A stretch of DNA of 64,000 nt from Paenibacillus endoradicis. GTDB taxonomy: Bacteria > Bacillota > Bacilli > Paenibacillales > Paenibacillaceae. Shown here one piece after another: positions 9,988 through 38,297 of the stretch. Position numbers and translations under genes: made by a program. The stretch is taken from assembly GCF_024721975.1 (NCBI RefSeq), contig NZ_JANQBB010000007.1:310001-374000 (forward strand). Reading direction: 5' to 3'. The notes below the pieces were generated by a model. It searched no databases. It was not told where the DNA came from and saw nothing but the letters and a program-made list of their open reading frames with translations. Position 1 is the stretch's first letter. The number at the start of each line of letters is the position of its first letter.

Positions 9988-10200
9988 GTTAAAGTCTTTT
10001 TGAATTACCTCTTACAATGAAGGCTCAAAAAGCGGGCTTTAGGAACCAAGAAGATGGAGCGCTACTTGAGGGAGGAGGAAACGCAAGTGTACGTAATTGG
10101 TACACGCGTACCGGACTTCCCAAGTTCGTTACATCTTCGATGTCGAATAAGCTAAGAAGCCATTCAACGTTATCAAAGTCTGCTTTTTGAATTACCTCTA
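9988..10200 (-). repeat. Inverted-repeat element, one full reverse copy plus an end fragment
   Basis: This fills the 311-bp gap between binding protein and permease. A full copy at 10025-10190 has terminal inverted repeats (TCAAAAAGCGGGCTTT against AAAGTCTGCTTTTTGA). Read on the minus strand it begins AGAGGTAATTCAAAA, as the other copies do. A fragment of a second copy at about 9988-10012 repeats TTTTTGAATTACCTCT 187 bp upstream. The apex reads GTGTAC-CAATTAC-GTACAC. It belongs to the family also found near 22.9, 26.3, 30.3 and 37.8 kb, but is the only copy in reverse orientation to the gene it follows. Confidence 0.8.
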
Positions 10201-10292
10201 GTAAGTGAATTGTGGGACCATGCGATGAGTAGTAACTTCATCGCTACGGTCCCTTCTTTCAACCTGAGCAATCATAGTGAGGAGTGACGGGA

Positions 10293-11249
10293 ATGAGTGA
10301 ACTAGAAATAGTAGAGAGCCGTCCAAAGCCAATGGGAAAAATTCAGCTCTTTTTTAAACGCTGTACTCAACAGCATGCCTTATTAGTAATGACGATACCA
10401 TTTCTAATATGGTTATTTATATTCAAATACTTACCCATTTGGGGTTGGACGATAGCATTTCAAAATTTTAAGCCTTCCAAAAGCTTTGGAGAACAAGAAT
10501 GGGTAGGCTTTCAGCATTTTAAGTTTTTATTTGAGGATGAACGCTTCTTGCGTGTGTTACGCAATACATTAGCAATGAGTGGTATTAATCTTATCTTAGG
10601 ATTTGTTACTGCCATTATATTAGCATTATTACTTAATGAGATAAGAATTATTGCTTTCAAACGTCTTGTACAGACAATTAGCTATTTACCTCACTTTATA
10701 TCTTGGGTAGTTGCAGCTGGAATAGTTCAAACTACTTTGTCACCTGATGGAATTATTAATGATCTCTTAATGCGCTTTGGATTAATTAAAGAGGATATAT
10801 TATTTCTCGGTATAGGGGAATACTTCTGGGGTATATTCGGTTCGGCGACCGTATGGAAAGATGTGGGTTGGAATACGATTGTTTATTTGGCGGCAATGAC
10901 GATGATTGATCCTGCACAATATGAAGCAGCTGAAATTGATGGGGCAGGCAGATTTCATAGAATGTGGAATATTACTTTACCAGGTATTAAATCGGTCATA
11001 GTTGTCCTATTAATAATGAATATTGGCTACCTAATGGAGTCAGGATTTGAACCGCAATATTTATTAGGTAATGGTATGAATGTCGATTATTCAGAAAATA
11101 TAGACATATTCGTCTTAAAATATGGGATAGCACAAGGAAATTTCTCGCTATCAATTGCAGCGGGAATGTTTAAGACAGTTGTAAGCTTTATATTGCTATT
11201 TACGGCTAACAATATTGCTAAGAGACTGGGAGAAGCAAGACTTTACTAG
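10293..11249 (+). CDS. CUT1 sugar ABC permease, LplB type
   Basis: The first transmembrane subunit of the importer. It has about six membrane helices, beginning with one at about residues 32-52 (LVMTIPFLIWLFIFKYLPIW). The EAA loop that docks the ATPase reads EAAEIDGAGRFHRMWNITLP. The start is set by GTGAGGAG (10277-10284) 8 bases before the ATG; an in-frame GTG at 10284 overlaps that site and is unlikely. The protein is 318 aa, normal for LplB. The next permease starts 13 bp after the stop. No ATPase gene is present, which is usual for this group and implies a shared MsmX-like ATPase elsewhere. Confidence 0.92.
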   Translation: MSELEIVESRPKPMGKIQLFFKRCTQQHALLVMTIPFLIWLFIFKYLPIWGWTIAFQNFKPSKSFGEQEWVGFQHFKFLFEDERFLRVLRNTLAMSGINLILGFVTAIILALLLNEIRIIAFKRLVQTISYLPHFISWVVAAGIVQTTLSPDGIINDLLMRFGLIKEDILFLGIGEYFWGIFGSATVWKDVGWNTIVYLAAMTMIDPAQYEAAEIDGAGRFHRMWNITLPGIKSVIVVLLIMNIGYLMESGFEPQYLLGNGMNVDYSENIDIFVLKYGIAQGNFSLSIAAGMFKTVVSFILLFTANNIAKRLGEARLY

Positions 11250-11262
11250 AAGGTAGGTGATT

Positions 11263-12162
11263 ATGATGCGAACAAATTTTTCTAAAGGTGATAAAATTTT
11301 TGATTATGTCAATTATACATTATTAACATTGTTAATGATCGTAACGTTATATCCCTTCATTAATACGTTGGCAGTTTCATTTAATGATGCTAAAGATTCT
11401 ATTCGAGGTGGAATATACTTATTACCCCGCTTGTTTACGCTAGATAACTATAAGTATGTATTATCCGAAGATAGTATCTTTAACGCTACATTAATCTCAG
11501 CATTGCGCACAATTATTGGTACAGTGACAACAGTATTTTGCTCTGCAATTGTCGCATATGCGATTAGTAGGCAAGAATTTGTATTGCGTAAATTTGTGAC
11601 GTTAGCCTTTATACTAACGATGTATATTAATGGGGGGCTTATCCCGAACTTTTTACTTATTCGAGATTTAAACTTGCTAGATTCATTCTGGGTATATATA
11701 TTCCCAGGGATCATAGGTGTGTTCAACCTTATTATTATTCGCTCATTTATTGAAGGATTACCTGATAGTATATTAGAATCTGCAAGAATAGATGGAGCAG
11801 GCGACTATCGTAACTTCTTCAGTATTGTCTTGCCGCTATGTGTTCCTGTTCTTGCTACTGTGGCTCTGTTCAGTGGGGTGTATCAATGGAACTCTTGGTT
11901 TGATGTATTCCTATATAATTCTTCGACGATAGAACTAAGTACATTACAATATGAGCTGCAAAAAATATTACAAAATTCCAACGCATCCATGACATCAACA
12001 TCAGTTGATTTCATCGGAGCTGGTCAAAACTCAGGTAGAGTTACACCAACAGCGATTCGTGCCACCATGACAATAGTTGCATCGGTTCCTATTATTATGG
12101 TTTATCCATTCCTGCAAAAGTACTTTGTTAAAGGAATGATGGTAGGCGGCGTAAAAGGTTGA
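11263..12162 (+). CDS. CUT1 sugar ABC permease, LplC type
   Basis: The second transmembrane subunit, about six helices. The EAA loop reads ESARIDGAGDYRNFFSIVLP and the tail MMVGGVKG is characteristic of LplC/YtcP proteins. AAGGTAGGTGAT lies just upstream; ATG codons at 11263 and 11266 are both possible, giving 299 or 298 aa. It forms the membrane channel with the preceding permease. It ends 120 bp before the GH8 gene; I see no terminator between them, so cotranscription is likely. Confidence 0.92.
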   Translation: MMRTNFSKGDKIFDYVNYTLLTLLMIVTLYPFINTLAVSFNDAKDSIRGGIYLLPRLFTLDNYKYVLSEDSIFNATLISALRTIIGTVTTVFCSAIVAYAISRQEFVLRKFVTLAFILTMYINGGLIPNFLLIRDLNLLDSFWVYIFPGIIGVFNLIIIRSFIEGLPDSILESARIDGAGDYRNFFSIVLPLCVPVLATVALFSGVYQWNSWFDVFLYNSSTIELSTLQYELQKILQNSNASMTSTSVDFIGAGQNSGRVTPTAIRATMTIVASVPIIMVYPFLQKYFVKGMMVGGVKG

Positions 12163-12282
12163 ATTTAATTAGTAAGATATAAAGTTTTCACTGTAAAACA
12201 TAAGCTTTACTCCGTTATGTTATGGATCAACGTTTAATATAATGAGTGAAACAACTTATAAAGTAGAAATGGATGATGACTG

Positions 12283-13419
12283 ATGACAACTGTAAATAAA
12301 CAAGCAGCATATGAAAGTAATCAGTATCGCAATGTTTTTGCAGAATACGGTTATACCGAAGAGGCGATTAACGAAAGGGTACAATCAACATGGGACGCAT
12401 TGTTTGGTGAAGACGAAGCTACGAAAATATATTATGAATTAGGCGACGATAAAGGTTATTTATTAGATACAGGTAATAATGATGTTCGCTCGGAAGGCAT
12501 GTCCTATGGGATGATGATGGCGGTTCAATATAATCAACAACATATTTTTGATCGTCTTTGGAATTGGACGTTTAACTATATGTACATGACTGAAGGTTTG
12601 CATCAAGGGTATTTTGCATGGTCCTGTCAACCAGATGGCACGCGTAATGCACAAGGTCCTGCTCCGGATGGTGAAGAGTTTTTTGCGATGGCATTATTCT
12701 TTGCTTCTCATCGATGGGGTGACCGAGAAGCCCCATATAATTATAGCGAGCAAGCACGAAATATATTACACACTTGTTTACACCAACAACAACCAGGGTT
12801 TACGATGTGGAATTTGGAGAACAAGCTAATTAAGTTCGTACCTGAAGTTGAATTCTCTGATCCTTCTTATCATTTACCGCATTTCTATGAGCTATTTGCA
12901 CTATGGGCCAATGAAGAGGATAGAGTCTTCTGGAAGGAAGCTGCCAGGGCTAGCCGTGATTATATTCATATTAGTTCTCATCCTGTCACAGGATTAGCAG
13001 CAGAATATGCTTTCTACGATGGAACACCTAATCATATTCGCGGGTATGGACATTTCTTTAGTGATTCTTACCGAGTAGCGGCAAATATCGGATTAGATTA
13101 TTTATGGTACGGAGTAGATGAACGTCAAGTTGATATTGCTAATCGAATTCAAGCTTTCTTTGCTAATAAAACACCTGATGATTACCGTAGATATTCTATC
13201 GAAGGTAAAGCATTTGAAGAGAAATCATTACATCCAGTCGGATTGTTAGCGACTAATGCTGTTGCTTCGATTGCTGCAAGTGGAGAGCATGCTAAGGCGG
13301 CAGTGGAACTGCTATGGAATACACCAGTACGTACTGGAGATCGTCGCTATTATGATAACTGTATTTACATTTTTGCGATACTTGCTTTAAGCGGAAACTA
13401 TCGTATATGGAAACCGTAG
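12283..13419 (+). CDS. GH8 reducing-end xylose-releasing exo-oligoxylanase
   Basis: This enzyme removes xylose from the reducing end of xylo-oligosaccharides (EC 3.2.1.156). The whole 378-aa sequence follows the Rex proteins of Bacillus halodurans and Paenibacillus as I remember them, including EGMSYGMMMA, GYFAWSCQPDGT, PEVEFSDPSYHLPHFYE and GHFFSDSYRVAANIG. By that alignment the proton donor is E71 and the catalytic base D261. There is no signal peptide, so it acts in the cytoplasm on sugar brought in by the preceding importer. The ribosome-binding site is weak. A strong terminator follows. The family call is firm; the exact specificity is inferred from similarity to Rex. Confidence 0.9.
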   Translation: MTTVNKQAAYESNQYRNVFAEYGYTEEAINERVQSTWDALFGEDEATKIYYELGDDKGYLLDTGNNDVRSEGMSYGMMMAVQYNQQHIFDRLWNWTFNYMYMTEGLHQGYFAWSCQPDGTRNAQGPAPDGEEFFAMALFFASHRWGDREAPYNYSEQARNILHTCLHQQQPGFTMWNLENKLIKFVPEVEFSDPSYHLPHFYELFALWANEEDRVFWKEAARASRDYIHISSHPVTGLAAEYAFYDGTPNHIRGYGHFFSDSYRVAANIGLDYLWYGVDERQVDIANRIQAFFANKTPDDYRRYSIEGKAFEEKSLHPVGLLATNAVASIAASGEHAKAAVELLWNTPVRTGDRRYYDNCIYIFAILALSGNYRIWKP

Positions 13420-13479
13420 CACAGGTGAAAAGTTAGTTATATCGTTAATTGTTGCTATTATTAATTGTTAATCCGCTAA

Positions 13480-13526
13480 ACAACTTAGGTTCACGAGAAA
13501 ATCGTGAATCTAAGTTGTTTTTTGTT
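13480..13526 (+). terminator. Strong terminator between the GH8 gene and glpP
   Basis: AACAACTTAG and CTAAGTTGTT form the outer stem and TCACGA/TCGTGA the inner stem, followed by a run of T. It most simply ends the oligosaccharide operon. Because it also lies ahead of glpP, control of glpPK by antitermination here is a less likely alternative. Confidence 0.85.
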
Positions 13527-13621
13527 ACTTTAGATTAACACTGTAGACTATACGAATAGATGTGGAGCAATATATAATGTTGCTAAGTAGGAAAACAGAT
13601 GATGGAAGAGGAGGTAACAAC

Positions 13622-14173
13622 TTGTCACTGGAACTCAATCAATCTGTATTACCAGCAGTCCACAAACTGAAAGACGTCGAAGAGGTGCTAGCATCATCAC
13701 ACATATATATGGTGCTATTAGGTGGGCATATTGGTCAACTACAAAGTACGGTAGAACTTATCAAACAGCATGGAAAAAAGATATTTCTTCATGCTGATCT
13801 TATTGATGGTTTGAAAAATGATGAGTATGCCGCTGATTTTTTATGTCAAAGTATTAGACCGACAGGTATTATATCTACAAGAGCAAACGTAGTAATGAGA
13901 GTGAAGCAAAGGGGCTTAGTTGCTATTCAACGAATGTTTTTACTTGATTCTGATGCGCTAGAACGTGGGTATAGGCTGCTAGAGAAAACACAACCAGATT
14001 TCATTGAAGTACTTCCAGGTATTATGCCTGAGATTATTAGTGAAGTGAAGCAACGTACAGGAATTCCTGTTATAGCTGGTGGTCTTATCCGTACATCGGA
14101 ACATGTCAATGAAGCTTTACAAGCAGGTGCAACTGCGATAACGACTTCAAGGAAAGATCTTTGGATGAGATGA
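13622..14173 (+). CDS. glpP: GlpP glycerol operon antiterminator
   Basis: An RNA-binding regulator that, with glycerol-3-phosphate, prevents termination in glp leader transcripts. It is a TIM-barrel-like protein; the segments GIISTRANVV, QRMFLLDSDALE, QPDFIEVLPGIMPEII and IPVIAGGLIRT match Bacillus subtilis GlpP closely. The frame opens further upstream, but AGAGGAGGT (13607-13615) is 6 bases before the TTG at 13622, giving a 183-aa protein that aligns with the known N-terminus (LSLELNQSVLPAVHKL). It is followed by glpK after 45 bp. Its expected target here is the long hairpin in front of glpD. Confidence 0.93.
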   Translation: MSLELNQSVLPAVHKLKDVEEVLASSHIYMVLLGGHIGQLQSTVELIKQHGKKIFLHADLIDGLKNDEYAADFLCQSIRPTGIISTRANVVMRVKQRGLVAIQRMFLLDSDALERGYRLLEKTQPDFIEVLPGIMPEIISEVKQRTGIPVIAGGLIRTSEHVNEALQAGATAITTSRKDLWMR

Positions 14174-14194
14174 AGTAAGCACTTTAATATATAA

Positions 14195-15709
<1,515 letters not shown>

Positions 15710-15751
15710 TGATGATATACTAACGACAAGTTAATAATGGTTGGAGATATG

Positions 15752-15829
15752 GAGAAACCGCGAATGCCGTTCATAAATGGGCTTTAATGCCCTTTATGGA
15801 ACGGCTTCTGAGGTTTCTCTTTTTTTTTT
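15752..15829 (+). promoter_or_regulatory. glpD leader terminator, probable GlpP target
   Basis: A 68-base hairpin: GAGAAACC (15752-15759) pairs with GGTTTCTC (15812-15819). An internal loop leads to a long upper stem in which GCCGTTC...GGGC pairs with GCCC...GAACGGC, and a run of ten T follows. It lies 41 bp before glpD. In B. subtilis the glpD leader carries a terminator that GlpP with glycerol-3-phosphate overrides; with glpP two genes upstream the same control is likely. It also ends the glpPK transcript. Confidence 0.8.
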
Positions 15830-15870
15830 ACTTATGGGAACGGACAGATTGATGAATTAGAGGAGATAAG

Positions 15871-19082: not shown

Positions 19083-19128
19083 TACTAAGTATTAGATGGT
19101 ATTCATTACATACAAAGGGGAGATATAC

Positions 19129-20241
19129 ATGAAACTTAGAAAATTCTATTCATCAATTGTATTATTATTAGTTGTTGCATTGGTGGTTACTGCATGTGGC
19201 GAAGGAAATAACAGCGCTACTACTGGTACTGGTAAGCAACAAGTTGAAAACCTTCCTGCTGCTTTGGTAGACAAGGGAGATATTAAAATTAAAGTTATCC
19301 GTAAAATCGGTGGTGACGATCATACTGCTCAGTTTTTAGCGGGCGCTAAGCAAGAAGGAGAATCTCTGGGATTTAAAGTAGATGTATTCTCAGCTCAAGG
19401 AGATACATTAAAATTCCACGAAGCACTTGAGCAAGCTGCTAATGAAGATATTGATGCAGTTATTATCTCACATGGTGATGATGAAGCAACGGTTGAAGAA
19501 GTACAAGCATTACGTGATAAAGGCATTGAAGTAGTTGCATTTGATTCTATTGAAGGACTAACAACTATTGAAGGTGTAACTTCTACTTCACAAAATGATG
19601 AATCATTAGCAACGTTCGCACTTGAGCATCTAGTAGCCGAAACTGGTGGCGAAGCAAAGATCCTATATTTATGGGTAGATGGTTTTCCACCAATGGTTCG
19701 TCGTAATGCAGTTTATCAAGAAGTTCTTGCTGCTAATCCCGGTATTGTTGAGTTAGATCGCTTTGGCGTTGCTAACGATAATACTTCTGTCGATACACAA
19801 AATGCAGTAGCTACACTACTTTCCAAATACCCTAAAGGTGAACTTGATGCGATCTTTGCAACTTGGGATGCGTTCGCAATTGGCGCACACCGTGCATTAG
19901 TAGAAGCTGGTCGTACAGAAGTGAAAATCTTCGGTATTGATGTTTCTAATCCTGATCTTGAAGCTATTCAAGAAGAGAACAGCCCATGGGTTTCAACTGC
20001 AGCTGTAGATCCTAAGTTAATTGGAGCTATTACTGTTCGTCTTGCAGCTAAAAAGTTAGCAGGAGAAGAAACTCCAGCGACGTATAATTTAGATGCAAAT
20101 ATCATTAAACAGTCTGATCTAAAAGCAGCCGCTGAACCTGTGAAAATGGATACTCTTGGTGATGTAATTTCTGGATGGGGTACTAGTGATGCTTTCCTTG
20201 AGGATTGGATGAATGATCTGAAAGAAGCTAATAAGAAGTAA
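19129..20241 (+). CDS. RbsB-like sugar-binding lipoprotein
   Basis: The substrate receptor of a CUT2-type ABC importer, tethered outside the membrane. The signal peptide ends in VTAC with lipidated C23. The rest is a type-1 periplasmic-binding fold (IKVIRKIGGDDHTAQFLAGAK near the start of the mature part). The frame opens at 19096, but AAAGGGGAG sits in front of the ATG at 19129; length 370 aa. It is encoded before its ATPase and permease, separated by a hairpin. At 370 aa it is longer than ribose-binding proteins. The sugar cannot be assigned from sequence; ribose, galactose, allose or another ligand are all possible. Confidence 0.88.
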   Translation: MKLRKFYSSIVLLLVVALVVTACGEGNNSATTGTGKQQVENLPAALVDKGDIKIKVIRKIGGDDHTAQFLAGAKQEGESLGFKVDVFSAQGDTLKFHEALEQAANEDIDAVIISHGDDEATVEEVQALRDKGIEVVAFDSIEGLTTIEGVTSTSQNDESLATFALEHLVAETGGEAKILYLWVDGFPPMVRRNAVYQEVLAANPGIVELDRFGVANDNTSVDTQNAVATLLSKYPKGELDAIFATWDAFAIGAHRALVEAGRTEVKIFGIDVSNPDLEAIQEENSPWVSTAAVDPKLIGAITVRLAAKKLAGEETPATYNLDANIIKQSDLKAAAEPVKMDTLGDVISGWGTSDAFLEDWMNDLKEANKK

Positions 20242-20294
20242 GGATGTTCAAATCATCCACTCGTGTTTATGATGTAATCTTATAAAATAAACTA

Positions 20295-21880: not shown

Positions 21881-22867
21881 ATGAGTACAGTTGGGGCAAA
21901 AAAGAAAAGTTTTCAGTGGTTCGATTTTCTATATAAATACGGAACATTAATTACAATTGCCGTATTAATTATATTTTTCGGTCTAGCTACTGACAATTTT
22001 TTCACATCTACAAACATTACTAACATATTACGATCGATCTCGATTGTAACAATTATTGCGGTTGGATTGACGGTATCGTTATCCGTAGGGGGATTCGATC
22101 TATCGGTGGGCTCAACTGCTTCATTAGCTAATGCCGTCGTTATTTCAATGTTCGTATGGCATAGTCAAAATATTGGCGTCAGCATTATTGTTGCGCTTGT
22201 AGTTTGTATTATTATTGGACTATTAAACGCCTTTCTCGTTACTAGCTTTAAAATACAAGATATGCTAATGACATTAGCGACGATGTTTGTTATTCAAGGT
22301 ATTGCATTAACTTATACACGTGGTGCGACAATCTCCAAAAATATGATTATGCCTAGTGGTGATTATGCACCAGGTTCTATACCGAAAGTTTTCGGACAAC
22401 TAGGGAAGGTGCCTTGGATCATTATTATTATGTTTGTCGTTGTAATACTTGTACACATTTTCCTAACGTATACAAAGCATGGACGTTATATGTATATGAT
22501 AGGAGGTAATCCGGAGGCAGCTAAGCTATCAGGAATCCCTGTACGTAAATATCGTTATCTTGCATATGGGTTAGCTGCTATTTTTGCAGGTATTGGTGGT
22601 ATTATTCTAGGAGCTCGTGTTATGACAGCAGAAGTTAATGCGGGTGCACCGTACTTAATGGATGCAGTAGCAGCAGCATTTATCGGGTATTCTGTACTAG
22701 GTTCAGGAAAGCCAAATGCATTCGGAACCTTTATCGGGGCAGTATTGATAGGAATCTTATCTAGTGGATTAATTATGCTCTCTGTTCCTTACTATGCGAT
22801 GGATATTGTGAAGGGGTCGGTGTTGGCGCTAGCGTTGGGCATCACATACTACAAACGCAAGCACTAG
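21881..22867 (+). CDS. RbsC-type sugar ABC permease
   Basis: The membrane channel of the CUT2 importer, 328 aa with eight to ten hydrophobic helices. The family region VGGFDLSVGSTASLANAVV follows the second helix, and RYMYMIGGNPEAAKLSGIPV is the conserved cytoplasmic loop. It starts 2 bp after the ATPase stop with AGGAGGG overlapping the end of that gene. It is the last gene of the operon: the stop is followed within 10 bp by an inverted-repeat element and then by a bidirectional terminator shared with hflX. Confidence 0.93.
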   Translation: MSTVGAKKKSFQWFDFLYKYGTLITIAVLIIFFGLATDNFFTSTNITNILRSISIVTIIAVGLTVSLSVGGFDLSVGSTASLANAVVISMFVWHSQNIGVSIIVALVVCIIIGLLNAFLVTSFKIQDMLMTLATMFVIQGIALTYTRGATISKNMIMPSGDYAPGSIPKVFGQLGKVPWIIIIMFVVVILVHIFLTYTKHGRYMYMIGGNPEAAKLSGIPVRKYRYLAYGLAAIFAGIGGIILGARVMTAEVNAGAPYLMDAVAAAFIGYSVLGSGKPNAFGTFIGAVLIGILSSGLIMLSVPYYAMDIVKGSVLALALGITYYKRKH

Positions 22868-23180
22868 AGAGGTAAGGCAAAAAGTTCGCTTGTGATTACG
22901 AAGAGTATCCTAACGTAGCAAACTCGATGGCGAATATGTCCTCCATCGAAAGCCTGCGTGTGCTCACGTACACAATACGTACGCTGTGCTACTCGTTTCC
23001 GCTGTAGGTCATCTTCTTGGTACTGACAAGTGAACTTTTTGCCCTTGATCAGAAGAGGTAAGGCAAAAATTTCGCTTGTGATTACGAAGTGTAATTTAAC
23101 GTAACATACTCGACGGCGAATATGTCATCCATCGAAATCTTTCGTGTGCTCACGTACACAATACGTACGCTTCGTAGCAT
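22868..23180 (+). repeat. Inverted-repeat element, one full copy plus the left half of a second
   Basis: The full copy at 22876-23043 is bounded by GGCAAAAAGTTCGCTTGT and ACAAGTGAACTTTTTGCC, which are inverted repeats matching at 17 of 18 positions. The second copy starts at 23062, exactly 186 bp after the first, but ends near 23180 after the apical hairpin. Inside are a hairpin TCGATGG...CCATCGA and the apex CACGTAC-ACAATAC-GTACG. Both copies carry AGAGGTAAGG just before the left end. It fills the gap between the permease and the terminator before hflX. Confidence 0.85.
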
Positions 23181-25533: not shown

Positions 25534-26205
25534 ATGAATGAATTTGATTGGGGAGCATTTATAGAACCGATCTTAATTTCCATTAAAATAACAATAGTTG
25601 CGAGTATTATTGTTTTTATATTAGCGATTATAGTGTCACGTCATATGAGTAGAGCGAAATTTCGCTGTAAATTAATTTTAGATACTTTCTTCATGATTCC
25701 ATTAGTATTACCTCCGACGGTAATTGGGTTCATTTTGCTATTTGCATTTGGTAAGAAAGGTTTTCTTGGTCAGTTGTCCGAGATTGTGTTCGGACAATCA
25801 CTTGTATTTACATGGTGGGCAGGAGTTATTGCTGCTATAGTTGTAGCATTCCCTCTTGTGTATCAGACGATGAAGGCTGGATTTGATTCGATTGATTCTG
25901 ATCTAGAGGCTGTTGCACGTTCACTAGGTGCTACAGAATGGCAAGTATTTCGCTACGTTGCACTGCCGCTGAATAAACGTATGTTAGTAGTAGCCTTTAC
26001 TCTAGGATTTGCAAGATCTTTAGGTGAATTTGGAGCAACGCTAATGCTTGCAGGTAATATTCCTGGACGAACACAGACGGTTGCAACTGCAATCTATGTA
26101 GCCATTGATGCTGATCGGACGCTACTTGCTTTAGCGTGGGTTGCTATACTAATCATTTTCTCATTCATTATAATGTATTTTGTGCGCCAACCAGCTAAGT
26201 CATAG
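25534..26205 (+). CDS. modB: Molybdate ABC permease ModB
   Basis: The membrane channel for molybdate, 223 aa with about five helices. Typical segments are FFMIPLVLPPTVIGFILL and the ATPase-docking loop EAVARSLGATEWQVFRYVALPL, followed by the ModB sequence SLGEFGATLMLAGNIPGRTQT. It is coupled to modA (2-bp gap). The stop is followed by a degenerate copy of the inverted-repeat element rather than by modC. Confidence 0.93.
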   Translation: MNEFDWGAFIEPILISIKITIVASIIVFILAIIVSRHMSRAKFRCKLILDTFFMIPLVLPPTVIGFILLFAFGKKGFLGQLSEIVFGQSLVFTWWAGVIAAIVVAFPLVYQTMKAGFDSIDSDLEAVARSLGATEWQVFRYVALPLNKRMLVVAFTLGFARSLGEFGATLMLAGNIPGRTQTVATAIYVAIDADRTLLALAWVAILIIFSFIIMYFVRQPAKS

Positions 26206-26278: not shown

Positions 26279-26362
26279 GAGGATGATCAAAAGGCTCGCT
26301 CGTGATCGCGATGTATTACTTCATAGTTGTTTCGGCGGAGAATAGGGCATTCAGCAGAAGTT
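26279..26362 (+). repeat. Degenerate left half of the inverted-repeat element
   Basis: GAGGATGATCAAAAGG and TGATCGCGATG align with the left end of the copies after potD (GAGGTAGTTCAAAA and TGATCGCGATGAG). Weaker similarity continues to about 26362 (GCATTCAGC against GCCATTCATC). The apical hairpin and the right end are missing. It lies 73 bp after the modB stop. Confidence 0.6.
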
Positions 26363-29349: not shown

Positions 29350-29504
29350 TGAGTATTCTCCTTTATGTATATGCTTAACTAGTATTTTAACACATATTAG
29401 TATTCCGTTCCTAATGCAGTTATATGACCATGGCGAAACTTGTTTCATTCTCATATCTTATTATGAAGCATTATGAAGCTAATGTGAAAGGAGACGGGTC
29501 GCCT

Positions 29505-30296
29505 ATGTTTAATTTTCATTGGGGAAGGCAAATGCGAATAACTGCTAAACGGCGTGGTCGGAAGGCAGATAAAATGATCAAAACTAGAATTTTGTTGAGT
29601 AATAGTTATATAAGGAGTCATATCCCTGTAACGAAGACTTATTCTCATTCAACGTTAAAATTAATGCTATTAAAATATGGGATGGTATATATAAAACCCA
29701 AAAACGGTTCACTTGGTAGAGGAGTTATTCGAGTAACGAGAAAAAATGGCAGATATATTAGCCATTCAGGTATGACCATATCTTCATATGCAACTTTTGA
29801 GGGATTGTCGCATGCACTGTCACGTCAAATAAAAGGTGAAATATATATCGTACAGAAAGGGATACATTCTCTTCGTCATCAAGGCAGATTATTCGACTTT
29901 CGTGTAGTTGTACAGCGTAGTCCTAATGGGGGATTTGAAGTAACAGGAATAGCGGGTCGTATCTCGCAACGTGGTCGTGTCGTAAGTAATGGAGGTGGTG
30001 GAGGAGCTGTAGGTACAATAGATAGCTTATTGTCACCAAGACAACTGAGCATTGTCATCCCAAAAATTGAGAAGTTAAGTTTAGCAGTCATGCATCAAGT
30101 TCGTAAACATTTCAGAGGACAAAATGAGATTGGAATTGATATCGCAATTGATCAACATCTTCGTCCTTGGATTGTCGAGTTTAATACTCATCCAGATCAT
30201 CGGATGTTCGTTATAATGCGTGATCGAGTGGTATTAGCGAGGATTATTCATTATGGGGCTAGATATGGGAAACGCTACAGGCTAAATCTTTACTGA
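29505..30296 (+). CDS. YheC/YheD-like ATP-grasp protein
   Basis: A protein of the group called endospore coat-associated YheC/YheD, 263 aa and shorter than B. subtilis YheC. The ATP-grasp core is visible: MVYIKPKNGSLGRGVIRV (nucleotide-binding lysine and Gly-rich loop), RLFDFRVVVQR and a C-terminal metal site WIVEFNTHPDH. A glycine run GGGGGAVGT lies near residue 170. AAAGGAG at 29487-29493 favours the ATG at 29505, although the spacing is long (11); an upstream in-frame start at 29424 would overlap the promoter region of the divergent cyclophilin gene. The ligated substrate is unknown. Confidence 0.82.
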   Translation: MFNFHWGRQMRITAKRRGRKADKMIKTRILLSNSYIRSHIPVTKTYSHSTLKLMLLKYGMVYIKPKNGSLGRGVIRVTRKNGRYISHSGMTISSYATFEGLSHALSRQIKGEIYIVQKGIHSLRHQGRLFDFRVVVQRSPNGGFEVTGIAGRISQRGRVVSNGGGGGAVGTIDSLLSPRQLSIVIPKIEKLSLAVMHQVRKHFRGQNEIGIDIAIDQHLRPWIVEFNTHPDHRMFVIMRDRVVLARIIHYGARYGKRYRLNLY

Positions 30297-30297
30297 T

Positions 30298-30345
30298 AGA
30301 GGAAGTTCAGTAAGCAGACTTTGATAACGATGAGTATGGTTAGGT
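30298..30345 (+). repeat. Fragment of the inverted-repeat element
   Basis: AGAGGAAGTTCAGTAAGC and AGACTTTGATAACGATGA match the left end of the copy near 10.2 kb read on its minus strand (AGAGGTAATTCAAAAAGC, AGACTTTGATAACGTTGA). Only the first 40 to 50 bases remain. It starts 2 bp after the stop codon of the YheC-like gene. Confidence 0.65.
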
Positions 30346-30373
30346 AGCGTAATTGATATCAAAGTGAAAGAAA

Positions 30374-30779: not shown

Positions 30780-30910
30780 TATATTCTCTCCTTTAATGTG
30801 AAATAGTATATGTACATTATATCTCTATTCATTCGCAAGCGCCAACGTTCGACGAATATAAAAAACTTGATAACAGGTATTGCAAAAAACAAATGATAGC
30901 TTTATAATAA

Positions 30911-30992: not shown

Positions 30993-31050
30993 AGTTCAAG
31001 ACAAATATATAAACTCTTGAAATCATAGTTCAGTAAGTGGAGGTGATAAC

Positions 31051-31626
31051 GTGTCCATTGATAGACGATCATTAATTGTAGATGCCGCTTCAAAGTCATT
31101 CTCTTTATTTGGATATAAAGGAACGACAATGGAACAAGTAGCCAAAATAGCTAATGTTGGTAAAGGTACAATCTATACGTTTTTTGCTAACAAAGAAGAA
31201 TTATTTCAAGAGGTAATGAACAAATTATTGTTAGAGATGAAGTATGTTGCTGAAAGAGTAATAAGTGATGAGCGTTCATTTTTTGATAATTTAACTGAAG
31301 CATTGAATGAGCTTCTCGAATTCCGCAAAGATCATGAATTAGCACTGAAATTAACTCAAGAAGTAAGAGAAATTGGTACACCTATGGCGAATGAGGCATT
31401 AGTACAGATGGAGCAGGTAATCATTGAGCATATTGCAAGCAAAATAGAGCATGCTATTAATCGTAATGAGATTAAAGCCTGTGATACTCAAATGACCGCA
31501 TTTGTCATGTTTCGATTATATACTGCCCTTGCTGTAGAGTGGAGTGCAAAGCACGAAACATTGCAAAAGCAGGAAATCGCACAACGATTACGGTTTTACT
31601 TGGAGAAGGGCTTGGCTATCTCATAG
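31051..31626 (+). CDS. TetR family transcriptional regulator
   Basis: A dimeric repressor of 191 aa. The N-terminal helix-turn-helix covers about residues 8-55 (KGTTMEQVAKIANVGKGTIYTFFANKEELF); the rest is the ligand-binding helical domain, which gives no clue to the effector. It starts at a GTG with GGAGGTGATAAC ahead. Upstream is a TGACC-N13-GGTCA operator and GTCA array, and the same operator stands before the following yhgE gene, so the protein very likely represses both itself and the YhgE-type gene. The pairing resembles yhgD-yhgE of B. subtilis. Confidence 0.9.
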   Translation: MSIDRRSLIVDAASKSFSLFGYKGTTMEQVAKIANVGKGTIYTFFANKEELFQEVMNKLLLEMKYVAERVISDERSFFDNLTEALNELLEFRKDHELALKLTQEVREIGTPMANEALVQMEQVIIEHIASKIEHAINRNEIKACDTQMTAFVMFRLYTALAVEWSAKHETLQKQEIAQRLRFYLEKGLAIS

Positions 31627-31651
31627 AGAGGCCTTTTCTTTTCAAATAAAA

Positions 31652-31674
31652 TGACCAATTGAGGAAAATGGTCA
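31652..31674. promoter_or_regulatory. Second TGACC-N13-GGTCA operator, before the yhgE-like gene
   Basis: TGACC (31652-31656) and GGTCA (31670-31674) form an inverted repeat with the same 13-base spacer as the site in front of the TetR gene; the spacer sequences differ, so the arms are what is kept. It lies 31 bases before the ATG of the YhgE-type gene. Confidence 0.8.
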
Positions 31675-31705
31675 GTTAGACAATAAATTTAGAGGTGAAT
31701 GAAGA

Positions 31706-33706
31706 ATGTCGAGAAATAGTCAAATCGGTTCTGAATTTAGCAGTATCGTTCGGAACAAAAAAGTTGTAATACCAGTCATAGCAGTAATGTTAATTCCTCT
31801 GCTATATTCTGCATTATTTTTAGGAGCATTTTGGGATCCATATGCTAAGTTAGACAAAATTCCAGTAGCGATTGTTAACGAAGATGCTGGAGCAGAGTTA
31901 AACGGAGAGCAAATGAAAATTGGTGACGAGTTTGTCGATCAATTGAAAGAGTCGGGAGACTTCAATTATGAGTTTGTAACTAAGCAAGAAGCAGTAGCGG
32001 GACTTAAAGATAATTATTATTATATAATGATTCAAATTCCTCAAAAATTTTCTGAGCAAGCAATTTCCTTAGTGGGTGATAATCCCGAGCAGGCAGAATT
32101 GATTTATACGCCTAATGAAGGATATAACTTCTTAGCAGGTCAGATTGGCGGTACTGCCGCAGCCCAGATGACAACATTGCTTAATCAACAAATATCAAAA
32201 ACATATGTTACTTCTATATATGAACAAATAGGGGTAGCGCTTGAAGGTATCGAAGCAGCAAGTGAAGGGGCTCACAAAATAGCTGATGGTACGGATTCAG
32301 CTAAGGCAGGTGCAACTAAGTTACTTGCAGGCCAACAAACGTTAGCAGATGGTTTAATTGAATTACAGACTGGTGCTACTCAATTAAATACTGCTGGTAC
32401 GCAATTATCTAGCGGACTTGGTACTTTGCAAACTGGTGGTAAAAATCTAAGTAGCGGGATGTCCCAATTAACTGAAGGAGCACAAACCTTGAATGGTGGT
32501 ATTTCTCAGTTAGCAAAACAATATGCAAGCTTAGATACTGGTCTTAACGATATTAGTGAAGGTACAACAGCATTGAAGCAAGGTGCAATGCAATTACAAG
32601 CAGGTTTACAGCAATTAGCAAGTCAGAGTAGTGACTTGGCAGGTAGTGCCTCATTCCAACAATTATTAGCTGGTAGTGAACAATTGGTTAATGGCTTGTT
32701 GGCGCAAGAACAAGGTGAGAATCAATTAATAGCTGGTTCCTCGCAAGTAGTTAATGGATTGAGTGGCTTGTCAACGGGATCAAATCAATTAGTTACGAAA
32801 CTAACTGAAGCTAAGCAAGGTGCTAATCAATTGGCAACAGGGATTACTTCTGCAAAAGAGGGATCTACTCAATTAGCAGCAGGTCTACAGTCACTTAAAG
32901 GTTCTAGTGATAAATTCGTATCAGGTAGTAAGGAATTGGTTGCCGGAAATAAGGAATTAGTTACAGGTTTAACAACGCTTGATGAAGGAGCGAATGAACT
33001 TGCAACAAAATTAGGTGACGCTAATGGAGAATCACTTAATCTTACATTAACTGAGCAGATGAAGGATCAATTCGTTGAACCAGTCGTATTAACGACAAGT
33101 TCTTATTCTAATGTACCTAACTACGGTACAGGATTTGCTCCTTACTTTATTTCACTGGGATTATATGTAGGATGTATGTTGCTTACTGTTGTATATTCTA
33201 TGAGAGAACCATCATTGAAACCACATAGTGGTAGAAGTTGGTATACTGGTAAAACAGCTGTTGTTGGTTTAATCGCTATTCTTCAAGCATTAATCCTTGG
33301 TGCATCTATTTTACCAATTCTTGATCTGGAAGTAGTGAATCTTGGAGCATTCTTCTTATTCGCAATTATTACGAGTTTGACTTATATGATGTTAATTCAA
33401 TTGTTATGTGTGACAATGGACAATGTTGGTAGATTTATTGCAATTGTGTTGCTAATTCTTCAACTAACTAGTTCAGCTGGAACATTCCCAATTGAACTTG
33501 TACCAAATTGGTTACAAGCGATTAATCCTTTCTTACCGATGACGTATACGGTGACAGGATTCAAACAAGCTATTTCTAGTGGTGATATGGATATGTTCTG
33601 GAGTAGTGTATGGCCATTGTTAGCGTTAATGATTGGATGTTCAATTTTAAGCTACATTTACATGAATGTAAGTTTCAAAAAGAAGTTTCAAAACGTAACA
33701 GAATAG
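31706..33706 (+). CDS. YhgE/Pip-type membrane protein
   Basis: A 666-aa protein of the YhgE/Pip family, which includes phage-receptor-like and ABC-2-related membrane proteins. One helix at about residues 20-40 is followed by a long extracellular region and five C-terminal helices (from about 470). Between residues 180 and 440 the sequence is a run of short repeats of the form G-x-x-x-L-x-x-G (for example QLTEGAQTLNGGISQL, QLAAGLQSLKG), suggesting an extended coiled or helical rod. GAGGTGAATGA precedes the ATG. It is adjacent to the TetR gene and carries its operator. The role, export or surface function, is not shown by sequence. Confidence 0.9.
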   Translation: MSRNSQIGSEFSSIVRNKKVVIPVIAVMLIPLLYSALFLGAFWDPYAKLDKIPVAIVNEDAGAELNGEQMKIGDEFVDQLKESGDFNYEFVTKQEAVAGLKDNYYYIMIQIPQKFSEQAISLVGDNPEQAELIYTPNEGYNFLAGQIGGTAAAQMTTLLNQQISKTYVTSIYEQIGVALEGIEAASEGAHKIADGTDSAKAGATKLLAGQQTLADGLIELQTGATQLNTAGTQLSSGLGTLQTGGKNLSSGMSQLTEGAQTLNGGISQLAKQYASLDTGLNDISEGTTALKQGAMQLQAGLQQLASQSSDLAGSASFQQLLAGSEQLVNGLLAQEQGENQLIAGSSQVVNGLSGLSTGSNQLVTKLTEAKQGANQLATGITSAKEGSTQLAAGLQSLKGSSDKFVSGSKELVAGNKELVTGLTTLDEGANELATKLGDANGESLNLTLTEQMKDQFVEPVVLTTSSYSNVPNYGTGFAPYFISLGLYVGCMLLTVVYSMREPSLKPHSGRSWYTGKTAVVGLIAILQALILGASILPILDLEVVNLGAFFLFAIITSLTYMMLIQLLCVTMDNVGRFIAIVLLILQLTSSAGTFPIELVPNWLQAINPFLPMTYTVTGFKQAISSGDMDMFWSSVWPLLALMIGCSILSYIYMNVSFKKKFQNVTE

Positions 33707-33719
33707 ATTATTGAGAATT

Positions 33720-33760
33720 CTCATCTCGGGTAGTGCATACTGCTCGAGATGAGTTTTTTT
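33720..33760 (+). terminator. Terminator after the yhgE-like gene
   Basis: CTCATCTCG and CGAGATGAG form a perfect stem with a T7 run after it. The following 174 bases to the potA start hold nothing I can assign. Confidence 0.9.
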
Positions 33761-33934
33761 GTGGGAAATAGTATTAATATGAAAAAATGGATGGCATTTT
33801 ATAGATACGATACATGGTTTTGATGATTTATGTAGAAATTAAGTAAATATAGATGGTAGATGTCTAATAATGAACACAAAAAGATGATAATCATGTATAA
33901 TCACCTTAATTGTAAAGTTAAAGGAGTCAAAGAA

Positions 33935-35083
33935 ATGGAACAAACGATTATTCGTTTTGAAGGTGTTTCAAAACAATACGATGAGCGTGACCCAGCCGTT
34001 CTGAAAAATGTCAGCTTTGAGATAGAGCGTGGTAAATTTTATACGTTGCTAGGTCCTTCGGGCTGTGGTAAAACGACGATTCTTCGTCTAATTGCGGGAT
34101 TCACAGCGCCAAGCCAAGGGAATATTTATTTCAATGGAAAAGTGATAAATAATTTACCTGCCAATGAGCGCCAAGTGAATACGGTGTTTCAAGATTATGC
34201 TTTATTTCCACATCTTAATGTATTTGAGAATGTTGCCTTTGGTCTACGTATCAAAAAGATGAAGGAAGCAGTTATTAAAGAAAAAGTGGCAGAGGCATTA
34301 AAGTTTGTTAACTTAGTAGGTTACGAAAATCGTGAAATTACGGAAATGTCTGGTGGTCAGCGCCAACGTGTTGCAATTGCGCGAGCTATAGTAAATGAGC
34401 CGCAAATATTGTTGTTAGATGAACCTTTATCTGCATTAGATCTTAAGTTAAGAACTGAGATGCAATACGAGTTGAGGGAACTACAACGCAGACTGGGCAT
34501 TACTTTTATATTTGTCACACATGACCAAGAAGAGGCATTAGCGATGTCTGATGAAATCTTCGTATTAAATGGTGGTATTATTCAACAGTCGGGTACACCT
34601 ATCGATATTTACGATGAACCAATAAACCGTTTTGTTGCTGATTTTATCGGGGAATCAAATATTGTAAAGGGTAAGATGATTAAAGATTTTGAAGTGGAAA
34701 TTTCAGGGACAGTAGTTCCATGTGTCGATCAAGGCTTAAATGTCAATGAGACCGTGGATATTGTTATTCGTCCTGAAGATATTGAAATTGTTGGCTTGGA
34801 TCGTAGTCAACTTCATGCTCGAGTAGACTCACAATTGTTCCGAGGCGTACATTATGAAATTTGTTGTTATGATGATAATGATAATGAATGGCTAGTACAT
34901 AGTACTCGTAAAGCGACAGTGGGGGAACGTATTGCTCTATACTTTGAGCCTGAAGCCATTCACGTTATGCGACTTGGTGAGACAGAAGAAGAATTTGATA
35001 AACGACTGGAATCTTATGAAGACAGTGAAGTTGATCATAAGGAGTTAGCATCTCCAACTAAGGAGATGAATCATGGAAACTAA
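33935..35083 (+). CDS. potA: Spermidine/putrescine importer ATPase
   Basis: The energising subunit of the polyamine ABC importer, on the inner face of the membrane. Walker [10 protein letters not shown] lies at about residues 38-46, the Q loop in [11 protein letters not shown], signature [14 protein letters not shown], Walker [13 protein letters not shown] and the switch His in FVTHDQEEA; the C-terminal part is the TOBE regulatory domain. An upstream in-frame start exists, but AAAGGAG in front of the ATG at 33935 gives the typical N-terminus ([14 protein letters not shown]) and 382 aa. Its last 11 bases overlap potB. The four genes form one tightly packed operon. Confidence 0.95.
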
Positions 35084-35888
35084 AACACGCAATATATATT
35101 TGGTTCCTTATATTTTATGGATCGTTTTATTCGTAATTGCACCGATTATTCTTATTGTGTATTACTCTTTCTTCAATGTTGAAGGAGCATTCACGTTTGA
35201 AAATTACCAGAAATTTTTCACACCAGTCTATATGAAAATGACGTTAAGCTCATTTTGGTATGCATTGCTTATTACAATATTTTCTTTGGCAATCGCGTAT
35301 CCTACGGCGTATTTATTGACGAAAACGAAGCATAAGTCATTATGGTTATTATTAATCATATTACCTAGCTGGATTAACCTATTGCTAAAAGCATACGCGT
35401 TTATCGGTATATTTGGCACGTATGGTATTGTGAATGCGTTACTTGAAACGGTCGGCATTGGAAACCGTCAAATTTTATTTACCGATTTCAGTTTTATTTT
35501 TGTATCGGTATATATCTTTATTCCGTTTATGATATTACCGATCTACAATGCATTAGAGAAAATGAATCCCTCTCTTATCTATGCTGCAAGAGATTTAGGT
35601 GCGTCCTCGTGGGGGACATTCCGAAAAGTAATTTTCCCACTAACGCTGGACGGTGTTAAGGCGGGTTGTATTGCAGTATTTATTCCCGCGCTGTCATTGT
35701 TTATGCTTACTCGTTTAATTGCCGGGAATCGAGTGATTACGCTTGGTACCGCTATTGAACAGCATTTCCTTGTAACTCAAGACTGGGGAATGGGGGCAAC
35801 AATTGCCGTATTCTTAATTATAATAATGGTCGTTGTCATGATGCTCATGGGCCTGAGAAAGCGAGGGCTAGATTTTGTTAAACGATAA
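35073..35888 (+). CDS. potB: Spermidine/putrescine permease PotB
   Basis: The first membrane subunit, 271 aa, six helices, beginning [20 protein letters not shown]. The ATPase-docking loop reads [31 protein letters not shown] lies inside the end of potA before the ATG, and the last 14 bases overlap potC, so translation of the operon is coupled. Partner of PotC in forming the channel. Confidence 0.94.
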
Positions 35889-36678
35889 ATTAAAGTACTC
35901 TCGTATATATCTCATTGCAGTATTCATCGTGCTATATGCTCCGATTGTATATCTAATGGTGTATTCCTTTAACAGCGGTGGAACAATGACAGGTTTTGAA
36001 GGGTTCACATTTGATCATTACAAAGAAGTGATGCAAGATACTCGTCTGTTAATTATTGTGCTTAATACATTCGTTATTGCGCTATTGTCAGCAGCGATAT
36101 CAACAATTATTGGTGTATTTGGTGCCATTGCGATTCATTTTATGCGTAGCAAATCTAAGCAAACTTTGCTTACACTTAACAATGTCTTGATTGTTAGTCC
36201 GGATGTTATTATTGGTGCATCGTTTTTAATTCTGTTTACTATTGTGGGCGTGAAACTTGGATTTGTATCGGTATTGCTATCTCATATTGCATTCAGCATT
36301 CCGATTGTTGTTATTATGGTATTGCCTAAGCTTCAAGAGATGAACAATTCATTGATTGATGCTGCGCGTGACCTAGGAGCGAGTACATGGCATGTTATCG
36401 CACGTGTTGTAATGCCGTTCATTAAGTCAGGTATTTTTGCAGGATTCTTTATGGCATTAACTTATTCCTTGGATGATTTTGCAGTTACATTCTTCGTAAC
36501 GGGTAATGGCTATTCTACATTAGCAGTAGAAATCTATTCTCGCGCTAGACAAGGGGTATCTCTTTCCATTAACGCTCTTTCAACACTTATATTCTTATTT
36601 ACGGTATTACTGGTTATTGGATATTACTTCATTAACCAACGTAATAGTCGATTAGAAGATAAGGGGGCAAAACAATGA
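35875..36678 (+). CDS. potC: Spermidine/putrescine permease PotC
   Basis: The second membrane subunit, 267 aa, six helices, with YAPIVYLMVYSFNSGGTMTG after the first helix and docking loop [20 protein letters not shown]. It begins at a TTG that overlaps the end of potB and ends in ATGA shared with the start of potD. No other start fits, because the frame is tied to coupling with potB. Confidence 0.93.
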   Translation: MLNDKLKYSRIYLIAVFIVLYAPIVYLMVYSFNSGGTMTGFEGFTFDHYKEVMQDTRLLIIVLNTFVIALLSAAISTIIGVFGAIAIHFMRSKSKQTLLTLNNVLIVSPDVIIGASFLILFTIVGVKLGFVSVLLSHIAFSIPIVVIMVLPKLQEMNNSLIDAARDLGASTWHVIARVVMPFIKSGIFAGFFMALTYSLDDFAVTFFVTGNGYSTLAVEIYSRARQGVSLSINALSTLIFLFTVLLVIGYYFINQRNSRLEDKGAKQ

Positions 36679-37748
36679 AACAAATAACAAGAATGTTTAT
36701 TCTCGTTTTTGTTGTCTGCTTCGGCTTAATTTATCTCGTTGATTATATGAATAAGAGTGAAGGATACTCTGGAGATAATACATTAACGATATATAATTGG
36801 GGAGATTACATCGATCCTGAGTTGATTAAACGCTTTGAATCAGAAACAGGCATTAAAGTTATCTACCAAACCTTCGATTCGAATGAAGCAATGATGACGA
36901 AAATCAAGCAAGGTGGTACAACCTTTGATATAAGTATTCCATCGGAATATGCCATTGATAAGATGAAGGCAGAAGGATTATTACTGCCAATTGATCATAA
37001 TAAATTACCTAATTTGAAAAATATAGATCCTAATTTTCTCGGTCTAGCCTTTGACCCTGATAATAAATATTCTATTCCTTATTTCTGGGGGACCGTAGGT
37101 ATCGTCTATAATCCAGATTTAGTAGGTGATCTTACATTCGAAAGCTGGAATGATCTTTGGGATGAGCAGTTAAAAAACAATGTGTTTCTGCTTGATGGCG
37201 CCCGTGAAGTTATTGGTATGGGCTTGAATTCGTTAGGTTATTCCTTGAATGACACCAATGAAGAACATTTACAAGAAGCACTTAAGAAGTTATCGCTACT
37301 TACGCCTAATGTAAAAGCGATTGTCGGTGATGAGATCAAGATGTTAATGGCTAATGAAGAAGCCGCAGCAGCATTAGTATGGTCTGGAGATGCTCGAGAA
37401 ATAATGGATGAAAATGAAGATCTCGATTATATTGTTCCGAGTGAGGGTTCTAACCTATGGTTCGATAACATCGTTATTCCTTCAACTGCCCGTAATATTG
37501 AAGGTGCACATCAATTCATTAATTTCATGCTTGATCCAGAAGTAGCGGCGCAAAATGCAGATTATGTAGGGTATTCTACTCCAAACGATGCCGCACTTGA
37601 GTTATTAGATGAGGAAGTTTCAGGTGATGAGCGCTTCTATCCAGATGAAGAACTGACTTCTCGATTGGAGGTCTATAAAAATCTTGGACCGAGAATGTTG
37701 AGTCATTATAATGAGTTGTTCCTGGAGTTCAAGATGCACCGCAAGTAG
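36675..37748 (+). CDS. potD: Spermidine/putrescine-binding protein PotD
   Basis: The polyamine receptor, 357 aa, outside the membrane. The mature domain starts NTLTIYNWGDYIDPELIKRF and contains PYFWGTVGIVYNP and DNIVIPSTARNIEGAHQFINF, all typical of PotD. The N-terminal hydrophobic stretch (about residues 7-24) contains FVVC but no standard lipobox, so it may be a membrane anchor rather than a lipoprotein signal; that is unusual for a Gram-positive binding protein. The ATG overlaps the potC stop. The gene is followed after 6 bp by the three-copy repeat array. Confidence 0.93.
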   Translation: MKQITRMFILVFVVCFGLIYLVDYMNKSEGYSGDNTLTIYNWGDYIDPELIKRFESETGIKVIYQTFDSNEAMMTKIKQGGTTFDISIPSEYAIDKMKAEGLLLPIDHNKLPNLKNIDPNFLGLAFDPDNKYSIPYFWGTVGIVYNPDLVGDLTFESWNDLWDEQLKNNVFLLDGAREVIGMGLNSLGYSLNDTNEEHLQEALKKLSLLTPNVKAIVGDEIKMLMANEEAAAALVWSGDAREIMDENEDLDYIVPSEGSNLWFDNIVIPSTARNIEGAHQFINFMLDPEVAAQNADYVGYSTPNDAALELLDEEVSGDERFYPDEELTSRLEVYKNLGPRMLSHYNELFLEFKMHRK

Positions 37749-38297
37749 AGCGGTAGTTCAAAACAATCACTTGTGATCGCGATGAGTAGCTTCGTAGCAA
37801 AGTCGACGTCGAAGTTGCCATTCATCGGTTGTTTCAGTGCTCACGTACCAATAACGTACGTTGTGCGCTTCACTTCCCTAGCTTCATGGCATCTTCTTGG
37901 CGCTGACAAGCAACTGTTATGAACTTTTATTGGAAGAGGTAGTTCAAAACAGTCACTTGTGATCGCGATGAGTAGCTTCGTAGCATAGTCGATGTCGAAG
38001 TTGCCATTCATCGGTTGTTTCAGTGCTCACGTACCAATAAGGTACGTTGTGCGCTTCACTTCCCTAGCTTCATGGCATCTACTTGGCGCTGACAAGCAAC
38101 TGTTATGAACTTTTATAGGAAGAGGTAGTTCAAAACAGTCACTTGTGATCGCGATGAGTAGCTTCGTAGCAAAGTCGACGTCGAAGTTGCCATTCATCGG
38201 TTGTTTCAGTGCTCACGTACCAATAACGTACGTTGTGCGCTTCACTTCCCTAGCTTCATGGCATCTACTTGGCGCTGACAAGCAACTGTTTTGAACT
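37749..38297 (+). repeat. Three tandem inverted-repeat elements, 186-bp period
   Basis: Three full units of 171 bp lie at 37755-37925, 37941-38111 and 38127-38297, joined by 15-base spacers ending in AGAGGT. Each begins AGTTCAAAACARTCACTTGT and ends ACAAGCAACTGTTWTGAACT, which are imperfect inverted repeats, and each has an apical hairpin CGTAC-CAATAA-CGTACG (one base differs in copy 2, GGTACG). Copies differ at only a few positions, for example GTCGACGTCGA in 1 and 3 against GTCGATGTCGA in 2. There is no open reading frame in the array. It begins directly after potD. Confidence 0.92.

Follow-up and report, generated by a model that had tools for sequence, protein, structure and literature searches.

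What kind of element is the short repeat that lies behind several genes of a 64,000-nucleotide stretch of Paenibacillus endoradicis DNA (NCBI RefSeq assembly GCF_024721975.1, contig NZ_JANQBB010000007.1, positions 310,001 to 374,000; called the window below, with positions counted from its first letter), and how did it come to stand at gene ends? Our answer is that its copies probably represent a new family of non-autonomous mobile elements of Paenibacillus-type bacteria that resemble miniature inverted-repeat transposable elements (MITEs): they are small, dispersed and geneless, carry subterminal inverted repeats, are flanked in some single copies of other genomes by a 7-bp duplication, and occupy sites some of which are empty in relatives. 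Two features are unusual, namely contact with stop codons in the sense orientation in the window's clade and truncation at one side only.

Copies, host range and fold

The copies in the window were located by repeat search and sensitive BLAST. The closest relative, G003, is represented by one 5.27-Mb contig, and its HflX protein is 99% identical to that of the window. The copies are as follows.

9983..10012, minus strand: stub representing the left end of the next tandem copy, whose left end lies 187 bp from that of its neighbour; inner end approximate.
10011..10200, minus strand: type 2 (ACTTTGATAACG) full copy, running antisense to the solute-binding gene 8263-9981; G003 has an empty site here.
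20239..20275, plus strand: left-end stub at a sixth locus, its first bases being the TAA stop of open reading frame (ORF) 19096-20241; inner end approximate.
22868..23053, plus strand: full copy immediately 3' of the TAG stop of the permease ORF 21881-22867.
23054..23174, plus strand: second tandem copy, right-truncated, 90% identity.
26279..26360, plus strand: solo left part, 73 nt past the end of ORF 25534-26205 and matched by an orthologous solo left part in G003.
30297..30363, plus strand: solo left part of type 2, immediately 3' of the TGA stop of the ATP-grasp ORF 29424-30296.
37749..37934, plus strand: tandem unit 1, immediately 3' of the TAG stop of the solute-binding ORF 36675-37748.
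37935..38120, plus strand: tandem unit 2, head-to-tail with units 1 and 3.
38121..38306, plus strand: tandem unit 3, the last; units 1-3 are 96-98% identical, with a period of 186.

The initial annotation had named five loci, at each of which full or partial copies were recovered; the sixth, 20239-20275, had been overlooked. The spacing of 186-187 bp that the annotation gave for tandem neighbours agrees with the period of 186 at 37749 and with the left ends 187 bp apart at 10200-10011, the distance of 2-73 bp that it gave from the stop is corrected to 0-73 (ORF ends 22867, 37748, 30296 and 26205), and the copies at 26279 and 30297 are indeed related remnants, more exactly left parts only. Allowing up to one mismatch, RGGNNGTTCAAAA, the motif of the left end, matches the window 10 times against 2.5 expected, a number reached by 0 of 100 shuffles; seven of these matches fall within the copies and three (33961, 45008, 63444) outside. 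None of the window copies contains an ORF of at least 100 aa, Rfam 15 gave no match at gathering threshold in the window, and ARAGORN found no tRNA there; at locus L115, five Rfam matches were all weak, below gathering and unrelated.

That the family is dispersed in high copy number, as had been surmised from the window, was borne out in relatives; at the density of the window, with its six loci in 64 kb, a genome of 5 Mb would be expected to hold several hundred. A covariance model built from 27 copies was used for the genome searches, giving at least 150 matches in G001, Candidatus Paenibacillus intestinavium (150 of 150 scored candidates, from 2091 first-look candidates), and at least 150 in G003 (150 of 150 scored). 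A search of G001 with one window copy as query gave 49 matches in the best 40 of 200 candidates; a protein scan placed its locus L001 colinear with window 28-38 kb, with an ATP-grasp protein 82% identical. Beyond these genomes, matches were found in at least 19 of 60 relatives, at least 130 of 295 sampled genomes of the bacterial family and at least 44 of 398 sampled genomes of the class, several of the last being weak; these are lower bounds, because few candidates were scored per genome (43, 8 and 6 in the three sets, respectively) and stricter filters applied. One window copy had no match in plasmid and phage collections.

The unit is non-coding, quasi-palindromic and about 186 bp long (about 184-190; 186 bp for full window units), with subterminal inverted repeats formed by GTTCAAAA... 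and ...TTTTGAAC arms and with the outermost 5-8 bp not repeated. An alignment of 27 copies (A3), with left end AGAGGTAGTTCAAAA and right end TTTTGAACCTTTATT, predicts a fold that spans the entire unit. By itself, RNAalifold gave 23 pairs on A3, 10 of them with double changes; a larger structure, set out from the pair probabilities and derived from the same 27 sequences, pairs in 85.1% of cells. Changes on both sides were seen in 29 pairs of this structure against 19.9 after shuffling and in 130 cells against 49.5, with no excess of further pair types over shuffles (124 of 500). Because the A3 structure came from the A3 sequences themselves, we repeated the compensation count on 41 copies from G030 and G006 (A5), obtaining 25 pairs against 11.4 and 88 cells against 26.0, values that no shuffle reached; A5 was aligned to the model, and such a model-fitted alignment leans towards the model structure. 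RNAalifold predicted 41 pairs on A5, 13 with double changes. Altogether, compensatory changes in two alignments support the predicted whole-length fold.

The choice of functional strand, judged by G.T versus A.C mismatches, gives a mixed signal. In the terminal helix, A.C exceeds G.T on the sense strand (58 versus 7 in the 27 copies; 133 versus 34 in 84 rows), and in the remaining helices G.T exceeds A.C (185 versus 94 in the same 84 rows, which are those kept from the 99 of alignment A4 after overlapping rows were dropped). The bottom strand gives the better fold for 13 of the 27 copies under RNA parameters and for 20 of 27 under DNA parameters.

Sequence subfamilies, also proposed initially, do exist: the CACTTGTGATCACG and ACTTTGATAACG types are the two main ones in the window's clade, and further ones occur elsewhere. 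One, in G033 (L076, L094, L246) and G020 (L079, L098), has TTCCCATTA (or AATA) replacing TTTGATCA and forms arrays of up to six detected pieces. Other copies match only model positions of about 18-170 (L140:1607-1758, L140:3104-3255, L180:13400-13549, L185:3557-3704 and others) and constitute a subfamily with different outer arms.

Empty sites, target duplication and arrays

Comparison of orthologous loci establishes, at the level of sequence, that occupied and empty sites both exist. Site 30297 is empty after the TGA stop in L001, holds a type 2 left part in the window, and holds a type 1 full unit followed by a stub in G003. Between G026 and G003, L226 of the former is filled and L137 of the latter empty, and conversely L164 of G003 is filled and L213 of G026 empty; in both pairs, as between window site 30297 and L001, the stop codon stands at the same place. 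The window copy at 9988/10012 is absent at the orthologous G003 site, and at 37749 the units are missing from L001, where a short left stub is possibly kept. At 20239 the window has a stub only, and in G003 a full unit precedes the same stub, a difference as compatible with recombinational loss as with gain.

Very short hairpins, with little beyond two joined ends, were seen at L161:17846-17948 (G003) and L001:9944-9969, at sites with arrays in a relative; they are possible footprints of excision or deletion. Separately, a short tandem repeat lies behind a gene at about 797100-797560 of G003 contig C1 (orthologous to window 17560), and this repeat is missing from the window.

Among single full copies in other genomes, 12 of 64 are flanked by a 7-bp duplication, most commonly of the form CTNNNAG, against 1.5 expected (up to one mismatch in 7 bp; 0 of 5000 permutations reach 12 of 64); its length and offsets were picked after a placement grid had been scanned, and the best cells of the grid overlap the chosen one. 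A transposase supplied in trans would have moved the element into AT-rich CT...AG heptamers. This enzyme may since have been lost in G003, because no two sampled arrays there have first full units more than about 90% identical.

Growth into arrays of similar units may then follow, which in G003 and the window would occur mainly through tandem duplication on the spot. Units within G003 arrays have a median identity of 94.7% (27 pairs, 14 arrays), compared with a median of 85.1% and a maximum of 90.4% to the nearest other array (first full units), and identity within the window array is 96% (3 pairs). Arrays would shrink through recombination between repeats or through deletion from the right, either of which could leave left-end stubs. 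Of 145 arrays that include a full copy, 54 are followed by a trailing left-end stub, i.e., a right-truncated copy (window 2/3, G003 24/53, G001 6/27, G026 17/25, others 5/37), and a leading right-end stub, i.e., a left-truncated copy, precedes only 1 of the 145, in G026. Detection power was nearly equal, with left halves recovered in 75 of 75 and right halves in 74 of 75 cases at 60 nt, and both in 75 of 75 at 85 nt. Gene protection as the sole cause of right-only truncation is weakened, because arrays away from sense stops also trail stubs (14 trailing and 1 leading, n=39): in G003, G001 and G026 together, trailing stubs were found in 33 of 66 near-stop and 14 of 39 other arrays, the sole leading stub being among the others.

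As an observation in its own right, a second motif (approximately TTGACCGCTCGTGTACTCGTACCGTACACRTTGCTGGG) lies just right of type 2 arrays at L118, L164, L168, L180, L181 and L185 of G003 and is possibly a companion element or a deletion derivative.

Contact with stop codons

Position relative to genes was scored in 78 stretches of 20 kb from G003 (1.56 Mb), of which 74 followed a grid with a spacing of about 70 kb and 4 made up the region orthologous to the window; the G003 grid is unselected, and the loci of G001, G026 and other genomes were selected for holding copies. The G003 sample yielded 124 non-overlapping nhmmer matches in 77 arrays, 73 of which were scored for stop contact, arrays near stretch ends being dropped. 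Genes were called with a simple codon-score caller, on which the counts of upstream genes, gap classes and leading or lagging strand depend. A caller-free test required a stop closing at least 100 open codons at -30..+12 nt of the left end; it was also applied to target-motif sites and to random non-coding points, for which gene calls excluded coding sites, and it likewise underlies the near-stop class in the stub counts above and the G030 and G006 counts below.

By gene calls, 53 G003 arrays have a co-oriented upstream gene, and 39 of these start within -30..+10 nt of its stop (25 within -3..+10). Where both neighbours were called, co-directional gaps held 41 sense and 19 antisense arrays, convergent gaps 10 and divergent gaps 3, divergent gaps making up 121 of the 940 G003 gaps of at least 30 bp. 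In the caller-free test, the left end met a sense stop in 42/73 arrays of G003, 20/30 of G001, 21/31 of G026, 14/39 at loci of other genomes and 2 of the 4 scored in the window; the right end met a convergent stop in 4/73, 2/30, 0/31 and 7/39 arrays of the first four sets. Random non-coding points of G003 lay at a sense stop in 140 of 4000 cases, and free YTWWWAG sites did so in 115 of 1186 (9.7%), with 80 at a convergent stop. Sense contact in G003 is therefore about six times what target motif and gene avoidance predict, whereas convergent contact is about as they predict. The association with strand and stop codon that the initial annotation suspected thus exceeds both random and target-motif models in G003 and is present in G001 and G026; its wording that copies always lie downstream of a stop codon fits the window loci (the copy at 9988 being antisense to the preceding gene) but not the family, given 42 of 73 arrays in G003. 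The sense bias is weaker in the distant G030 and G006, with sense contact in 7/20 and 9/21 arrays and convergent contact in 8/20 and 5/21, some arrays counting as both; random positions there, coding sequence included, lay at a stop in 282/4000 and 311/4000 cases.

GC skew places the G003 origin at about 1.67 Mb and the terminus at about 4.1 Mb. Near-stop arrays divide into 33 leading and 7 lagging, like genes (1048 and 234), and the remaining 37 arrays into 19 and 18. Gene direction, not replication, goes with array orientation; replication-driven orientation was rejected on the even split away from stops and on the way near-stop arrays track the gene strand. Terminators follow 10 of 42 near-stop arrays, compared with 172 of 626 genes. 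Copies behind stops would become part of the mRNA at its 3' end and there may be harmless or possibly shield the message; the sense contact may stem from targeting or from later selection.

Alternative readings and known systems

The case for a MITE-like mobile element has to be set against several observations. The element's ends fall short of perfect terminal inverted repeats. The 7-bp duplication fits just 12 of the 64 copies in other genomes and was not detectable in G003, G001 and G026 (40 copies; best excess 0.12), the right flank in the window's clade often being a stub. In G026 and G001, units of one array are no more alike than they are to the nearest other array (0.83 versus 0.85 in G026; 0.70, from 3 pairs, versus 0.875 in G001), so that some arrays are mixed. 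Finally, the initial annotation had called for a transposase with matching ends, and none was found in a partial search that covered the retrieved stretches. A scan of plus strands gave 36 pairs of ends separated by 0.5-3.5 kb; of the 19 listed pairs with a long ORF, many joined two known copies, and the ORFs read at L151, L033 and L281 were host-gene-like by eye. When model pieces were paired across both strands, a single pair emerged, with a spacing of 2.3 kb and an apparent host gene in between.

Known enzymes were searched for in the 60 relatives. Y1_Tnp had no match in G003, G026, G006, G030 and G033 and matched in 9 of 60 genomes, three of them among the 19 carriers (G001, a fragment; G045; G056); Y2_Tnp had none in G003, G001, G026, G006 and G033 and matched in 10 of 60, including four carriers (G005, G014, G030, G059); and RVT_1 was absent from G003 and 9 of the 19 carriers and matched in 33 of 60, including 10 of the 19. 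No integron integrase scored above cut-off in any of the 60 genomes. On these grounds we rejected an integron attC array, an IS91/ISCR rolling-circle element (no Y2 transposase in the five genomes named) and a retroelement such as a group II intron, retron or diversity-generating retroelement (no reverse transcriptase in G003 and 9 of 19 carriers), and likewise identity with repetitive extragenic palindromes (REPs) and their REP-associated tyrosine transposases (RAYTs), given a unit of about 184-190 bp against 20-40 bp and the lack of Y1_Tnp in G003.

The same data bear on how else the family could be read. The copies might be 3'-untranslated region (UTR) RNA elements kept by selection, whose folded RNA protects or tunes the upstream mRNA and which are therefore retained there in the sense direction. 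Sense bias and stop-codon contact, compensatory changes in both alignments, the greater share of near-stop G003 arrays holding a full copy (33/42 versus 18/31, raw counts; median best score 134 versus 109) and the G.T excess in the non-terminal helices all point this way; yet close relatives differ in occupied sites, near-stop arrays with a full copy score no better than others with one (p=0.28), wobble in the terminal helix is that of the other strand, and 37 of 77 G003 arrays lie elsewhere, evenly divided between leading and lagging. We regard this explanation as somewhat unlikely. A hypothetical machinery that directs integration to stop codons, or to ribosomes or transcripts undergoing termination, would account for the excess of sense contact over the 9.7% predicted in G003, and for one and the same stop being followed by a type 1 array in G003 and by a left part of type 2 in the window. 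Selection after insertion would give the identical pattern, however, the right end in G030 and G006 meets convergent stops nearly as often as the left end meets sense stops (13 versus 16, n=41), and 30297, as a site common to both, could go back to a single old insertion altered by gene conversion. We hold directed integration to be unlikely.

Spread by REP/RAYT, by another single-strand (HUH) enzyme or by reverse transcription would explain one fixed and one truncated end, and both the imbalance of trailing over leading stubs, at near-equal detection power, and the RVT_1 matches in 10 of 19 carriers are in keeping with it. We nevertheless consider it very unlikely, as G003 lacks Y1_Tnp, Y2_Tnp and RVT_1, an absence today that is compatible with a past enzyme, and 7-bp duplications occur in other genomes. 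It is also doubtful that a mechanism reading gene ends (a terminating ribosome, an mRNA end or a transcription end) produced both the sense insertions at stops and the arrays truncated at one end without HUH enzyme or reverse transcriptase.

A MITE-like mobile family remains our preferred reading, for an element widespread in one bacterial family that has neither an Rfam match nor a description that we could find: none of the papers listed for Paenibacillus, for the element's sequence words, for YPAL, bcr1 and EFAR or in a general search pointed to such a Paenibacillus element, in a collection that lacks most subscription papers. If stop contact is selected, the family offers a natural experiment on mRNA 3' ends; if it is targeted, it points to an insertion system that recognises gene ends.

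Several known elements invite comparison. YPALs are located closely downstream of stop codons, EFAR elements have a modular make-up, and the attC sites of integrons are folded sites that follow a stop codon immediately and point the same way as the gene. Unlike attC, the Paenibacillus-type elements sit behind ordinary chromosomal genes, and no integron integrase scored above cut-off among the 60 genomes. YPAL/RU-2 of Yersinia, in the passages available from its description, is about 168 bp long, palindromic and mostly intergenic, with empty and filled sites and a target duplication of 3-26 bp, and is called "co-translated" with upstream genes (PMC2229807). By that description the likeness extends to size, palindrome, intergenic location, empty and filled sites and target duplication, the last being 7 bp (CTNNNAG) here; the Paenibacillus family is set apart by its head-to-tail arrays, in which the last copies are right-truncated, by the sense orientation seen in one clade and by its hosts. 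The Enterococcus faecalis elements EFAR, named as a MITE (PMC3733652), and Efa-1, with 163 bp, 65 copies and two adjacent stem-loops (PMC2267715), are by description likewise Firmicute families of similar size. Also described as small, non-autonomous, folded intergenic MITEs are bcr1 of the Bacillus cereus group, ERIC, NEMIS and RUP (PMC2229807, PMC3733652); a table gives 5'TA3' termini for the last three (PMC2229807), which by description differ from the 7-bp duplication found here. GTAG REPs are 20-40 bp long, are associated with RAYT transposases, lie mostly behind genes and often supply the TAG stop with their termini (PMC3733652). They resemble our family, as far as that account goes, in a GTAG-like tag beside the stem in many copies, in location mostly behind genes and in termini that may supply the TAG stop, but the unit here measures about 186 bp, its tag varies (GTAG, GAAG, GTTG and others), and G003 has no Y1 match. 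The closest described analogues that we found are YPAL and the GTAG REPs (PMC2229807, PMC3733652; also PMC2267715, PMC2847712).

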